Positions 18,181 through 30,607 of a DNA stretch of 30,607 nt are shown here, in pieces (within the stretch, counting starts at the first letter, position 1; the number at the start of each line of letters is the position of its first letter). The stretch is from a virus. The position numbers and the translations under genes were made by a program. The stretch covers positions 1 through 30,607 of the IMG/VR virus record IMGVR_UViG_3300049825_000215; one strand, given 5' to 3'. The notes under the pieces are model-generated. The model did no database searches, was not told the origin of the DNA, and saw only the letters and a program-made list of their open reading frames with translations.

Positions 18181-18209
18181 ACTTAACATAGGAAGACTGC
18201 CCGCGTCAA
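18181..18209 (-). promoter_or_regulatory. Possible promoter for the zinc-finger gene
   Basis: On the minus strand TTGACG (18209-18204) and TTAAGT (18186-18181) are 17 bases apart. Near the predicted start site lies an imperfect palindrome centred on GACTAGTC (18173-18180), a possible operator. TTGACG is a frequent alphaproteobacterial -35 box; the -10 box is weak. Confidence 0.35.
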
Positions 18210-18228
18210 TAGGGATAACGCGGGCAGT
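18196..18228 (-). terminator. Ten-base-pair hairpin after the Topo VI-A-like gene
   Basis: ACTGCCCGCG (18196-18205) pairs perfectly with CGCGGGCAGT (18219-18228) around a 13-base loop. It lies 18 bases beyond the stop of the 18246-19160 gene. There is no good T tract on either side, so termination may be partial. The putative promoter of the next gene overlaps one arm. Confidence 0.5.
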
Positions 18229-18245: not shown

Positions 18246-19160
18246 TTAGATGTCACGCTCCGAGAGATAGTCCTTGATGGCGTCGTAGTTGTTTGAAATC
18301 AGGCGCAGCTCGTCTTGACCTTCGCGTTCAAGGCTCCTGCGCGCCTGCATCTTCTCGCCGTCGATATAAGGCTCGACGCTGCGGCGTATCAGCCGGTCAA
18401 TGTAATTGGGGTCCAGCGCGTCAAGCTCCCACGACTTGTTGCCGAAACGCCGCTTGTATTCACCTGACCGGCTGTCGGTTTCCTTGGCCGGGTTCGGCGG
18501 CGGATTAAGCTCTTCGATCTGATCCATGTTCAAGGCAATGCGGTGCACCTCCACATTCTCATAAGAGAACATCGCGAGCCGGTCGGCATTGTCGCGCGTC
18601 ATGTCAATTCCGCTCGGATCGTGGTCGCCAAGGTGGAAAACATGACACGCCTTGCCGCTGCTGTATTCGTTATAGAAACGCTTGCCAGCGCCGAACTGCT
18701 CTGACTGAGACGAGTAGCCCCGACATGCAAAGTACGGAATGCGAAAAGCGTTGCAGGACTTTTCGACAACGCCAATCAGCGCGTCCTTTTCCACCCATAC
18801 CTCAAGATAGTTTTCCTGACCTTGCCATATATCGACAAAGTAGCCGTCTGCAATCCCGTCAATGTAATCGGGAACGTCGTTGTAACCGCCGCTCCATCCT
18901 TTGAGATTTCGCGTCCTATCTTCGATTGCATCCCAATCAACATGACCGGCCAGCCGCGCCTTTGACAAAAGCGCGCCGAGGGATTTGTAATTACGCTGCT
19001 GATTTGCCAGAAGACCGCGCGCGACAAACTGGTAATAGAGCTGGCGCAAGGTGAGTTGGAAACCCTGCGCTTGGTAGCTTTCGATGATTTCGTTCGCCTG
19101 AGAAATCAGCTCCATGCTTTTGGCGTGAAACTTGTATTCTTGGAAAATTTCAAATGACAT
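18246..19160 (-). CDS. Stand-alone topoisomerase VI subunit A / Spo11-like protein
   Basis: The protein has 304 residues. Residues 36-45 (LTLRQLYYQF) match the region around the catalytic tyrosine of Topo VI-A/Spo11 (candidate Tyr42 or Tyr43), in a winged-helix-like N-terminal domain. A Toprim domain follows: VWVEKDALIG with Glu124, ACRGYSS at 145-151, and HLGDHDPSGIDM with Asp179 and Asp181 as metal ligands. The layout resembles the short Mini-A proteins described in mobile elements, which lack a partner ATPase subunit; no subunit B gene is visible here. It could make or process double-strand breaks, close to a phage exonuclease. AGGA lies eight bases before the ATG. Nicking or breaking activity is inference. 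Confidence 0.8.
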   Translation of the reverse strand: MSFEIFQEYKFHAKSMELISQANEIIESYQAQGFQLTLRQLYYQFVARGLLANQQRNYKSLGALLSKARLAGHVDWDAIEDRTRNLKGWSGGYNDVPDYIDGIADGYFVDIWQGQENYLEVWVEKDALIGVVEKSCNAFRIPYFACRGYSSQSEQFGAGKRFYNEYSSGKACHVFHLGDHDPSGIDMTRDNADRLAMFSYENVEVHRIALNMDQIEELNPPPNPAKETDSRSGEYKRRFGNKSWELDALDPNYIDRLIRRSVEPYIDGEKMQARRSLEREGQDELRLISNNYDAIKDYLSERDI

Positions 19161-19181
19161 TTTTTCATCCTTTCAAAAGAA

Positions 19182-19199
19182 AACCGGCCAAGGCCGGTT
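19182..19199 (-). terminator. Intrinsic terminator upstream of the Topo VI-A-like gene
   Basis: AACCGGCC and GGCCGGTT form an inverted repeat (19182-19189 with 19192-19199). On the minus strand it is followed directly by TTCTTTT, a usable T tract. It should end or reduce transcription of the exonuclease operon before the Topo VI-A-like gene. Confidence 0.65.
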
Positions 19200-19202
19200 C
19201 TC

Positions 19203-19231
19203 AATCCATCATTGTTTGGGTTGCGTGTCAA
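19203..19231 (-). promoter_or_regulatory. Possible promoter for the Topo VI-A-like gene
   Basis: On the minus strand a perfect TTGACA (19231-19226) overlaps the stop of the preceding gene, and TGGATT (19208-19203) follows after 17 bases. Predicted start is near 19196, inside the first arm of the terminator hairpin, so its transcript would not form the full hairpin. Confidence 0.4.
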
Positions 19232-19527
19232 GCGTTGGCGGCTGGCTCGCCCTTCTTCTTTGACGTTTCCGGCTCCGGTTCCTCCTTCGGCTTGTCGGCC
19301 ATGGCCGCAACCTGCTCCGGAGTGAACCGCTTGTTGATGTGCTGCTGACGAATTTCAAGGTCTTTCAGAAACGGGATGATTTCCGCTGGCGACTTGCGCC
19401 CCTCCTGCACGTCCAACAGCAACAGCGGAACGTCCGCTTGTTTGCGCAAGTCGTTTTTCGGTATAGGAATGAACCCGGTCAACATGACCGCAAACCCTGA
19501 AAGCGTCGTTGTAGCTGGCTCTGGCAT
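19228..19527 (-). CDS. Small protein of the recombination operon, function unknown
   Basis: The protein has 99 residues: a moderately hydrophobic N-terminal half (SGFAVMLTGFIPIPKND), a helical middle (SPAEIIPFLKDLEIRQQHIN) and a charged, disordered C terminus (KPKEEPEPETSKKKGEP). AGGAG lies before the ATG. It follows the 209-residue gene after a 31-base gap and is the last gene before the terminator. Confidence 0.65.
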   Translation of the reverse strand: MPEPATTTLSGFAVMLTGFIPIPKNDLRKQADVPLLLLDVQEGRKSPAEIIPFLKDLEIRQQHINKRFTPEQVAAMADKPKEEPEPETSKKKGEPAANA

Positions 19528-19558: not shown

Positions 19559-20188
19559 CTAGAATGCGTCTTGTTCCATGATTTCGCCGTCGATGATCTC
19601 GCCTGTGTCGGCGTCGTGCGCGGGATTGGCTGCCTCCCATGCGTCGTAAGCCGCTTGCATCTTGGCAAGCCTGTCAGCCGGAACCGCAGCCCGCCGCTCT
19701 GCCGTATCTCGCCAGAACTCGCGCGGGCCAGTATCTGATTTCAACGCCGCCCCGAACTCCTTTGCATAGGCGTCAACGGGATTGACCGTCTTTTCCGCAA
19801 GCGGCTGCACAGTGAACGGCGCGCGCTTGGATTTGCTGGCCGTGAGCGCCATGGTTTTGGGCGCATTCAAGCCGCTCATGTGGCTGATGCGAATGCCTCC
19901 AACCTCCATGCCACCGAATATCACCTTCGGGTCGCGGAACAATGTCATAGATCGCCCGGGGTAAGAATTTCCGTCCGGCCCCCAAATGTCAACGAAAACC
20001 CGGCGCATGGATTTGCAGGGCTTGTATGGCTTGCCGCCGTCACCCTCGAAAAAGACGCAAATGGGCTGCGCTGGATTGGACGGGTCGGCGGAAACCTTGG
20101 TTATTTTCACGGTCATTGGACCGGCGATAAGATCATCCGAATTGAGCTGGTCGGACTTGGGTGCGATGGTTTTTGAAACGTCGGTCAC
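19559..20188 (-). CDS. Probable DNA-binding partner of the exonuclease
   Basis: The protein has 209 residues. The first 120 residues are beta-rich (TVKITKVSADPSNPAQPICV, then RRVFVDIWGPDGNSYPGRSM and GGMEVGGIRISHMSG), which could be an OB-like fold. The C-terminal part is helical and ends in an acidic tail (DADTGEIIDGEI), as in many single-strand DNA-binding proteins. It starts with GTG that overlaps the exonuclease stop (GTGA), and AGGAG lies 14 bases upstream. Phage exonucleases are usually encoded next to an annealing or ssDNA-binding protein, so this is the best candidate. Family not recognised. Confidence 0.6.
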   Translation of the reverse strand: MTDVSKTIAPKSDQLNSDDLIAGPMTVKITKVSADPSNPAQPICVFFEGDGGKPYKPCKSMRRVFVDIWGPDGNSYPGRSMTLFRDPKVIFGGMEVGGIRISHMSGLNAPKTMALTASKSKRAPFTVQPLAEKTVNPVDAYAKEFGAALKSDTGPREFWRDTAERRAAVPADRLAKMQAAYDAWEAANPAHDADTGEIIDGEIMEQDAF

Positions 20189-20859
20189 GATGCGATAATC
20201 TCCTGTTGAACTTTTCGCTCGGTCGCATAAAGATGCTCGGACGCAAGAATGTAAGCCTCCATATTGTCTTGGAGCCGCGCCTCAAATGCGACTGCCGCGT
20301 TGATGATTGCCATTTGAATTGCCTCATCGGGAAAAACCCGGCAAACAAACATCGGCATACCGCCGCAATAGGAAATGAAGTCGCACCATTTGCGTTCGGA
20401 AATCAGCAATCCAGACTGAACTTGCAGCATGTATTCTGACGGACATTTGCCCTCTATGATCGTCTGCGCCTGATATTTCTGGCGGCGCGATTTGGCTTCG
20501 ATTAAACCGTCATCGCCAACAAGGCCGTCCGGCGAACAACCGATAGGAAATCCAAGCTTGTCGTTGGTGATGAATCCGCATTCGGTGACCGGCTCGTATT
20601 TCTCCGAATACAGGAGCCGCGCGTCAAATTCCTCATCTTTGCCGCGCAGCATGTCATCGCCGATATAATGGGGTTCCACATAGTTGGTGACACGCTGAGC
20701 AAGAAGCTCGTAAAGATGCTGTCTCTCTTTGTCGTTCGCCGCCATTTTGAGCGTCGGCGTGAGTATCAGGCTCATGTTGCTGGCGGTCAGCATTCCGCAG
20801 CGGATTTCGTGCCACTCGTCTGAGCCTTGAACCATGTTGGTGTGGTGGGTTACGGTCAT
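20185..20859 (-). CDS. YqaJ/lambda-type exonuclease
   Basis: The protein has 224 residues. Family blocks in order are GSDEWHEIRCGMLTAS (12-27), then the PD-(D/E)xK core GFPIGCSPDGLVGDDGLIEAKS with Asp111, Glu121 and Lys123, and YMLQVQSGLLI with Gln146/Gln148. These enzymes resect double-stranded DNA ends 5'-3' for annealing-type recombination. ATG 20859 overlaps the previous stop (ATGA) and has GGGGAG upstream, so I prefer it to the ATG at 20874. Clustered with a putative ssDNA-binding protein and a Spo11-like gene. Confidence 0.88.
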   Translation of the reverse strand: MTVTHHTNMVQGSDEWHEIRCGMLTASNMSLILTPTLKMAANDKERQHLYELLAQRVTNYVEPHYIGDDMLRGKDEEFDARLLYSEKYEPVTECGFITNDKLGFPIGCSPDGLVGDDGLIEAKSRRQKYQAQTIIEGKCPSEYMLQVQSGLLISERKWCDFISYCGGMPMFVCRVFPDEAIQMAIINAAVAFEARLQDNMEAYILASEHLYATERKVQQEIIAS

Positions 20860-21098
20860 TCTCGTTCTCCCCATTTGACAACGTAAGCTTGGCGAATTGG
20901 AACGCCGGAAATTTCGACGTTGTGAAGTCCGCCAACTTCCAAATATTTGGTGTCGTAGCCGTCACGGTGTAGCTGATCCGCCAGCTTCTGCACTTCGTTT
21001 GGAGCAACATTGAAGCAGGTCAAATGAAGTCCAGCGTTTTGCAGCGCGTTTGAAAGCTCGCGCACCGCGTCAATGATGCGGCTGGATGGGGTTGTCAT
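20856..21098 (-). CDS. Small protein, function unknown
   Basis: The protein has 80 residues: helix (SRIIDAVRELSNALQNAGLH), helix (PNEVQKLADQLHRDGYDTKY) and strands (YLEVGGLHNVEISGVPIR). The start is coupled to the repeat-protein stop as TGATG, and the stop overlaps the exonuclease start. A longer frame extends upstream into the repeats but is an artefact of their composition. No family recognised. Confidence 0.7.
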   Translation of the reverse strand: MTTPSSRIIDAVRELSNALQNAGLHLTCFNVAPNEVQKLADQLHRDGYDTKYLEVGGLHNVEISGVPIRQAYVVKWGERE

Positions 21099-21637
21099 CA
21101 CGCCCTTCGCAAAGCTGTTATCCGCGTGTCCGCCCGGAAGTTGGTGCACGCGGGCAGTTCGGGCAGGGCGGTCACGCCGGGGAGATTGTCCACCCGGAAG
21201 TAGGTGCACGCGGGCAGCGCGGGCAGGGCGGTCACGCCGGGGAGATTGTACGCCCGGAAGTCGGTGCACGCGGGCAGTTCGGGCAGGGCGGTCACGCCGG
21301 GGAGATTGTACGCCCGGAAGTCGGTGCACGCGGGCAGTTCGGGCAGGGCGGTCACGCCGGGGAGATTGTCCGTCCAGAATTTGGTGCACGCGGGCAGCGC
21401 GGGCAGGGCGGTCATGCCGGGGAGATTATCCGTCCAGAAGTTGGTGCACGCGGGCAGTTCGGGCAGGGCTGTCACGCCGGGGAGATTATCCGTCCAGAAG
21501 TCGGTGCACGCGGGCAGCGCGGGCAGGGCGGTCACGCCGGGGAGATTAATCGCCCAGAAGTTGGTGACTTTCGAAAAATCAAAATTCTTGGCGACTAGGC
21601 TATCGAGATGTGATTTTGATGTGATTGTCAGTTTCAT
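21098..21637 (-). CDS. Leucine-rich-repeat-like protein from 60-bp tandem repeats
   Basis: The protein has 179 residues. After a short N terminus (KLTITSKSHLDSLVAKNFDF) it consists of about seven 20-residue units of the form LPGVTALP[EA]LPACT[ND]F, with Glu and Ala alternating for most of the array. The LPxLPxxxxF rhythm and 20-residue period recall the short bacterial LRRs of YopM/IpaH type, so a curved binding surface is possible. Each unit has one Cys. ATG 21637 has AAGGA upstream; an earlier in-frame ATG at 21688 lies within the promoter region. It is the first gene of the leftward recombination operon. The role is unknown; the LRR call is by eye. Confidence 0.7.
   Translation of the reverse strand: MKLTITSKSHLDSLVAKNFDFSKVTNFWAINLPGVTALPALPACTDFWTDNLPGVTALPELPACTNFWTDNLPGMTALPALPACTKFWTDNLPGVTALPELPACTDFRAYNLPGVTALPELPACTDFRAYNLPGVTALPALPACTYFRVDNLPGVTALPELPACTNFRADTRITALRRA
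21128..21566 (-). repeat. Tandem 60-bp repeats, about 7.3 copies
   Basis: Units repeat exactly every 60 bases and differ at only a few positions. Two neighbouring units at 21241-21360 are identical. Differences cluster in two sites, giving CAGTTC/CAGCGC alternation (Glu versus Ala). The length is a multiple of three, so copy-number change keeps the frame of the 21098-21637 gene. Confidence 0.95.
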
Positions 21638-21654
21638 GGCAGGTTTCCTTTTAA

Positions 21655-21706
21655 GTTGACAGGCATGTATCCGTCCCATTAATGACATTGGATACTAATT
21701 GTCAAC
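21655..21706. promoter_or_regulatory. Interlocked opposed promoters and operator
   Basis: Plus strand: TTGACA 21656-21661 and TTAATG 21679-21684. Minus strand: TTGACA 21705-21700 and TTAATG 21682-21677. Both have 17-base spacers, and the two -10 boxes share the palindrome CATTAATG (21677-21684). GTTGACA/TGTCAAC is exactly symmetric about 21680.5. A second inverted pair GTATCC (21667-21672) and GGATAC (21690-21695) is offset by half a base and could be the operator arms. The plus promoter serves the HTH gene and the minus promoter the recombination operon; RNA polymerase could occupy only one at a time. Confidence 0.75.
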
Positions 21707-30191: not shown

Positions 30192-30370
30192 TTCTTATCC
30201 TCCATGCAACGCCGTGCAAACCACGCCTCGATCTGGCGGCAGTATTTCCGAGCGCCGTCTCTCGCCGCGTTCGATGGCATTCCGGGGCCTCTGCCCGCCG
30301 CGACAACCATCTCCCAAACCTCAAGCTCGTTTATCAGCTCGTCGCGCGTCATTTCGGAAACAGGTTTCAT
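30188..30370 (-). CDS. Small early protein, function unknown
   Basis: The protein has 60 residues (MTRDELINELEVWEMVVAAG, then GARKYCRQIEAWFARRC), helical and with two Cys. ATG 30370 overlaps the TGA of the repeat protein upstream (ATGA); an in-frame ATG at 30385 is less suitable. No family recognised. Confidence 0.65.
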   Translation of the reverse strand: MKPVSEMTRDELINELEVWEMVVAAGRGPGMPSNAARDGARKYCRQIEAWFARRCMEDKK

Positions 30371-30607
30371 GCCTCTGGCTCCCATGCGTCAAGATCGGCG
30401 ATTGTCGCAAACCCGAACATCGGAAGGAAAACCAGATTGTCGAGTTTGGAATGGCCTTGGATTTCGTTTGTCGCATAGCGGGCGGCAACGCTGGCGGGAG
30501 CGCTGGCGGCAATGCGGGCGGCATTGGCGGCAACGCTGGCGGCAACGCTGGCGGCAACGCTGGCGGCAACGATGGCGGCAACGCTGGCGGCATCGCGGGC
30601 GGCAAGG
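30367..30607 (-). CDS. Ala-rich repeat protein, C-terminal part (partial)
   Basis: The frame is open from the right edge to TGA 30367-30369: about 40 residues of AASV/AAIV/AARD-type units, then a unique end (ATNEIQGHSKLDNLVFLPMF, then ATIADLDAWEPEA). Phage proteins with long AAxxAA repeats of this kind exist, with no clear function. The stop is coupled to the next gene, which supports this frame over the Pro-rich minus frame and the Gly-rich plus frame also open here. The N terminus lies outside the window. Confidence 0.65.
   Translation of the reverse strand, partial: LAARDAASVAAIVAASVAASVAASVAANAARIAASAPASVAARYATNEIQGHSKLDNLVFLPMFGFATIADLDAWEPEA
30481..30607 (-). repeat. 12-bp tandem repeats at the right edge
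   Basis: About ten imperfect copies of GGCGGCAACGCT (minus strand AGCGTTGCCGCC) run to the last base. They encode the four-residue AASV unit of the minus-strand gene. The array may continue past the window. Confidence 0.85.

Follow-up and report, generated by a model that had tools for sequence, protein, structure and literature searches.

A Topo VI-A/Spo11-like gene and its surroundings

The stretch of DNA analysed here (the window) is an IMG/VR virus record of 30,607 bases. On the left its plus strand encodes head and other structural proteins and lysis proteins; DNA-metabolism genes lie on the right. The original prediction had placed a stand-alone Topo VI-A/Spo11-like protein at 18246-19160. 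A real open reading frame does occupy this interval, but it lies on the minus strand (19160-18246), the plus strand there being packed with stops. The gene, whose product belongs by its sequence to the Mini-A family (see below), has the following features within and around it, some of which recur at the loci of its nearest relatives, L002 and L043:

17779-18138, minus strand: 119-aa ORF (phrog_20494), downstream of Mini-A; zinc-finger-like by reading; homologue in the same slot of L002 and L043
18170-18183, no strand: near-palindrome AGTGACTAGTCGCT, downstream of Mini-A, with core AGTGACTAG
18196-18228, no strand: perfect 11-bp inverted repeat between Mini-A and the 119-aa ORF
18246-19160, minus strand: Mini-A gene (304 aa; Topo VI-A/Spo11-like), with Tyr43 as the predicted nucleophile, Glu124/Asp179/Asp181 in the Toprim and Arg39/Glu245 as a clasp-like pair
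18366-18809, minus strand: Toprim domain of Mini-A, residues about 118-265 (predicted model)
18825-19160, minus strand: winged-helix (5Y-CAP-like) domain of Mini-A, residues 1-112, carrying the LRQLYY helix (predicted model)
19179-19202, minus strand: terminator-like hairpin (10-bp stem, then a U-rich tail) between the 99-aa ORF and Mini-A
19228-19527, minus strand: 99-aa ORF, conserved and in the same place in L002 and L043
19559-20188, minus strand: phrog_11517 protein, its gene overlapping the exonuclease gene by 4 bp
20185-20874, minus strand: YqaJ/lambda-type exonuclease (PF09588, E 2.3e-15; phrog_149 exonuclease)

Farther off in the window are genes for a ResIII helicase, an HNH nuclease, a small endonuclease/resolvase-like protein and a VapE-like primase/helicase. 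No Rfam family was found in the window, L002 or L043. At 21098-21688 the window encodes a protein in which units of about 20 residues (NLPGVTALPELPACT-type) are repeated in tandem and which has a weak PHROG match, and at the right end of the record (30367-30607) it holds a low-complexity reading frame with Ala/Ser/Val- or Gly-rich repeats.

The YqaJ-type exonuclease expected near Mini-A on the same strand is there, about 1.0 kb upstream, with a PF09588 score of 57.6 bits against a cut-off of 22. The protein between them that had been proposed to bind ssDNA belongs to phrog_11517, a family without functional annotation, and has no sequence match in the PDB; its C-terminus is acidic and ends in Phe, and RecT holds its slot in L043. 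The family turned up in 186 phage records, and the match often overlaps or adjoins an annotated exonuclease. Given the acidic tail ending in Phe and the company of exonucleases in phages that show no trace of Mini-A, the phrog_11517 protein is probably an ssDNA-binding or annealing partner of the exonuclease, and possibly an SSB or annealing protein so far undescribed. The pair itself is not a hallmark of Mini-A, since just 3 of 42 Mini-A records contain YqaJ and, among 38, the window alone contains phrog_11517, and since the pair is common in phages without sign of Mini-A; among the matches listed, none of the 20 phrog_11517 records was one of the 60 Mini-A records.

The window, L002 and L043 each have a GC-rich hairpin followed by a U-rich tail immediately upstream of Mini-A, in the same place though with a different sequence. 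A generic terminator scan did not flag this upstream hairpin; as read from the sequence, it may end or attenuate transcription of the exonuclease genes before Mini-A is reached. A simple co-acting operon is thereby made less probable, because a terminator-like element separates the exonuclease genes from Mini-A. Downstream of Mini-A, the exact AGTGACTAG core was confined, among 147 loci, to the window (which L001 overlaps), L002:9411-9419 and L043:10965-10973, and the palindrome or hairpin to which it belongs could be an operator or an enzyme site.

Family membership, predicted fold and active site

The protein matched PHROG_6247 ('DNA topoisomerase') over residues 3-297, its full length, with an E value of 5.8e-109, and in tblastn searches it was 44% identical over 93% to gp49 of Pseudomonas phage NP1 (E 1e-72). 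A review takes the NP1 protein as its example of Mini-A, the truncated Top6A homologues of phages and archaeal viruses (PMC7614492). Homologues were present in 76 of 50,697 phage records (tblastn) and on 45 plasmids, and a plasmid record annotated 'Topo Mini-A' (LC711082) was matched at E 1e-18. Takahashi et al. 2020 reportedly described Mini-A as A-like proteins of the type IIB topoisomerase class, found in phages, in archaeal viruses and on plasmids. Because of the full-length PHROG_6247 match and the 44% identity to NP1 gp49, we assign the window protein by sequence to Mini-A, an already known kind of A-subunit homologue of type IIB topoisomerases carried by mobile elements. It resembles other members in its length of about 300 aa, its A-type domains without a B subunit and its carriage on a mobile element, and shows nothing that sets it apart; only its neighbourhood, with YqaJ and phrog_11517, is its own.

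Sequence searches of Pfam, NCBIfam and the PDB did not identify the protein, so that its tie to Topo VI-A at the sequence level is remote. The curated TP6A_N family of Pfam left it unmatched and recognised only 2 of the 29 relatives, with E values no better than 0.014. Weak matches to Catalase and Cry were chance.

An AlphaFold model built from an alignment of the 29 relatives (pLDDT 91) consists of a winged helix and a Toprim domain. Foldseek alone returned nothing from the PDB under E 0.001, and from BFVD one partial, nameless match. VIA-align was then applied to Foldseek's candidates, with the two domains searched separately. For the Toprim part (model residues 118-264) Topo VI-A 1d3y came top with a Z of 12.0 over 135 residues, ahead of further Topo VI-A chains, of MksG and JetD (Z 11.0-11.3) and of Spo11 (Z 9.8). 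For the N-terminal 113 residues, predicted alone, 1d3y was top again (Z 7.5, 69 residues, rmsd 2.3); that Z is middling by itself, and its weight comes from the same protein heading both searches. Moreover, a profile of 125 Mini-A proteins scored 45.7 against 18 genuine Topo VI-A sequences collected via TP6A_N, where 59 column shuffles reached at most 23.1 and the reversed profile 18.7; the signal was clear with 18 sequences and not with two. The likeness to Topo VI-A is thus not chance, given the PHROG_6247 match, a profile score above those of the shuffles and a Topo VI-A protein as the best structural match of both domains. In its predicted winged-helix and Toprim fold and in the conservation of its tyrosine, the protein agrees with the original prediction.

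The LRQLYY tyrosine region, which ends at Tyr43, and the Toprim residues named in that prediction are all present. Tyr43, Arg39, Glu124, Asp179 and Asp181 were found in 125 of 125 homologues and Glu245 (of WELDAL) in 122. The prediction had left the nucleophile between Tyr42 and Tyr43; Tyr42, however, was kept in only 119 of the 125 (otherwise F, W, H or A), and since Tyr43 is invariant and Tyr42 is not, Tyr43 is the predicted nucleophile. In mouse SPO11, likewise, the second tyrosine is catalytic, and the first varies in Spo11 (PMC11922746). The winged-helix superposition sets model residues 12-83 on 72-143 of the 1d3y chain, and Tyr43 would fall on residue 103 of M. jannaschii Topo VI-A, the active tyrosine (PMC3102714), if the superposed stretch is ungapped around the motif. 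In the profile alignment Arg39 and Tyr43 correspond to the Arg and Tyr of Topo VI-A, Glu124 to the Toprim Glu, Asp179 and Asp181 to DxD, and Glu245 to the first Glu of ELEAL. Carried over to M. mazei Top6A, Arg39, Tyr43, Glu124, Asp179, Asp181 and Glu245 become R102, Y106, E202, D254, D256 and E342, which supply the nucleophile, the metal ligands and an R102-E342 'electrostatic clasp' that restrains cleavage (PMC13040014). The Spo11/Topo VI-A active site is intact in the window protein.

That the protein stands alone, with no visible ATPase subunit, also held. It is a single A-like ORF of two domains, with no fused or encoded ATPase part seen, and neither HATPase_c nor HATPase_c_3 turned up in 38 Mini-A records (the window and 37 others, many of which, like the window, may be fragments); control genomes were positive in 14 of 14 cases, although a highly divergent B-like partner could escape such a search. 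Because mouse SPO11 cuts DNA in vitro without partners (PMC11922746), the missing B subunit is no argument against cleavage.

Measured against better known enzymes, the window protein shares with Topo VI-A (1d3y, 2q2e, 2zbk) the R-x3-Y of the winged helix, the Toprim E and DxD and an ELDAL/ELEAL-type motif, but it is shorter, has no Topo VI-B partner that we could find and goes unrecognised by TP6A_N. With Spo11 it has both domains and the active-site residues in common, and its gene adjoins end-processing genes; it differs in that no accessory partners are known for it, and the neighbouring enzyme is a phage 5'-3' exonuclease, not one of Mre11 type. Topo VIII joins a B-type ATPase part with the A part, whereas the window has an A-like ORF alone and no HATPase domain.

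Recombination genes near Mini-A across loci

The original prediction saw in the locus a break-making enzyme beside an end-resecting one. As a pairing with YqaJ this is rare, as given above, but exonuclease and annealing genes do recur near Mini-A in several separate arrangements. In L002 and L043 the order of exonuclease, ssDNA protein, 99-aa homologue, Mini-A and 119-aa homologue is as in the window, and outside that block both have VapE and helicase genes related to the window's; unlike in the window, however, an exoVIII-like exonuclease is followed there by RecT. Elsewhere RecE-type and RecT genes precede Mini-A (L003, L044, L046 and L049), Mini-A stands between an exonuclease and RecT (L006), or it is followed by Sak4 (NP1 and L031) or by a RecE-type gene (L092 and L107). 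On the tree, adjacency came about on several branches and forces at least four changes (starred branches), with a minimum of seven in all.

An exonuclease or annealing gene was present in the fetched flanks of 23 of 105 dereplicated loci, nearly always on the same strand and in 13 cases within 1.5 kb; the other 82 had no such gene detectable with locally built profiles. One survey of the neighbours of Mini-A found mostly repressors, integrases and methyltransferases. In Pfam searches of whole records, YqaJ, RecT or Sak4 lay less than 2 kb from Mini-A in 9 of 13 family matches (Fisher-combined p of 0.012, 0.011 and 0.020, respectively), and a nearest-gene contrast with helicase, VapE and polymerase controls, which leaves out Cas4-type exonucleases, gave 12/18 against 9/37 (p 0.004) or, collapsed at 60% identity, 6/9 against 5/24 (p 0.03); these p values flatter the association, because the genes used to seed the locally built profiles came from next to Mini-A, a choice biased towards adjacency, and because RecT and Sak4 were selected once the neighbours were known. 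Among controls, the counts within 2 kb were 1/17 for ResIII (p 0.09) and 3/14 for DNA polymerase A (p 0.27). PDDEXK_1 exonucleases were no closer to Mini-A than chance (0/10, p 0.28).

The recombination reading is partly supported. Exonuclease or annealing genes of different, unrelated kinds recur next to Mini-A, nearer to it than genes for helicases or polymerases. It is this recurrence, and less the window by itself, that supports a functional tie, though the general clustering of such genes in phages could also explain it.

Possible roles of Mini-A

Reviews of type IIB topoisomerases give Mini-A no function. The reading that we prefer, at a probability of roughly 45%, is that Mini-A is capable of making breaks and is used on the phage's own DNA, alongside the neighbouring exonuclease and the ssDNA-binding or annealing protein, for recombination. 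From the observed family, conserved residues and neighbourhood and from the predicted fold we infer dimerization, cleavage and role along the following lines. Two copies of Mini-A would clamp duplex DNA, and Tyr43 in the winged helix of either would act together with the Toprim metal site (Glu124, Asp179 and Asp181) of the other. Both strands would be cut a few bases apart, the protein staying on the 5' ends. The enzyme would cut or nick and then reseal and, because no ATPase partner is encoded, would do so without ATP-driven strand passage. Its target would most likely be the phage's own replicating or recombining DNA, where it would start or help recombination.

A bolder version makes Mini-A the phage counterpart of Spo11, producing programmed, protein-linked double-strand breaks that are processed by whichever exonuclease and annealing pair is present, so that bacterial DNA viruses would open recombination with a deliberate break and the resection module would be freely swapped round a constant break-maker. 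We think this possible but doubtful. Spo11-type cleavage leaves protein on the 5' ends, and tyrosine-linked 5' ends are a poor substrate for a lambda/YqaJ-type 5'-3' exonuclease. A host SbcCD-like step would therefore be needed, since the YqaJ-type enzyme is not expected to load on protein-blocked ends. This expected block and the hairpin between the genes both weaken a simple meiosis-like pathway. If Mini-A does cut by Tyr43 and feed phage recombination, viruses of bacteria would share with meiosis the logic of breaking first, possibly near its evolutionary source; the recurring placement of exonuclease and annealing genes beside Mini-A points to genes worth testing, for which NP1-like Pseudomonas phages offer laboratory systems, and makes an old analogy testable, not proven.

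Several rival readings can be set beside this one. Mini-A might be an ATP-independent relaxase that nicks or breaks DNA, lets it swivel and reseals it, relieving supercoils during phage replication without lasting breaks. The conserved, clasp-like Arg39/Glu245 pair would suit such an enzyme, the clasp of Top6 being one that holds cleavage back, as would the helicase, primase and polymerase genes that often surround Mini-A and the ability of a Topo VIII (M. marina) to relax DNA without ATP (reviewed in PMC7614492). We nevertheless judge this role unlikely, with recombination genes lying nearer than replication genes and topoisomerases being supplied by the host. A nuclease that attacks the DNA of the host or competing DNA, comparable to the nucleases related to Topo VI-A in Wadjet (JetD/MksG) or Gabija, would fit the Toprim fold, for which the Z scores of JetD and MksG almost equal those of Topo VI-A. 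The 5Y-CAP-like domain of MksG, however, lacks a candidate tyrosine (PMC10123090), whereas Tyr43 is invariant here; JetD and MksG come with an SMC partner operon, and PADLOC matched neither the window Mini-A nor five neighbouring proteins; we hold this role to be quite improbable.

We give as little credence to an enzyme of ends or origins, which would cut at a specific site and keep its protein on the 5' end to start replication, form genome ends or carry out resolution. The palindrome beside the gene, confined to the closest relatives, and the tendency of Streptomyces plasmid homologues towards plasmid ends speak for it, but the palindrome is limited to three loci and many tailed phages with otherwise ordinary-looking genes carry Mini-A. 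That Mini-A is a catalytically dead, DNA-binding remnant is scarcely credible: many Topo VIII enzymes are described as inactivated to varying degrees (PMC7614492), yet all catalytic positions are invariant across the 125 homologues, and in two contigs an intein-like insert lies one residue before the Toprim Glu, the type of site that inteins favour in active enzymes.

Some further observations concern variant members of the family. Streptomyces plasmids often carry divergent Mini-A homologues (24-31% identity), which tend to lie towards the plasmid ends (KS p 0.001 over 37 records, with no correction for relatedness); among the few of these plasmids whose topology was checked, pNO33 is circular. 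Three plasmid Mini-A proteins (L143, L144 and L145) have Gln where Glu245 stands, the position of E342 in M. mazei Top6A, whose E342Q variant is far more prone to cut DNA (PMC13040014). Finally, the two contigs with the insert encode Mini-A ORFs of 687 aa (L035:5183-7246 and L036:8549-10612), in which the intein-like segment starts with CFLPGTPV, contains a LAGLIDADG-like stretch and ends with THN before Cys.
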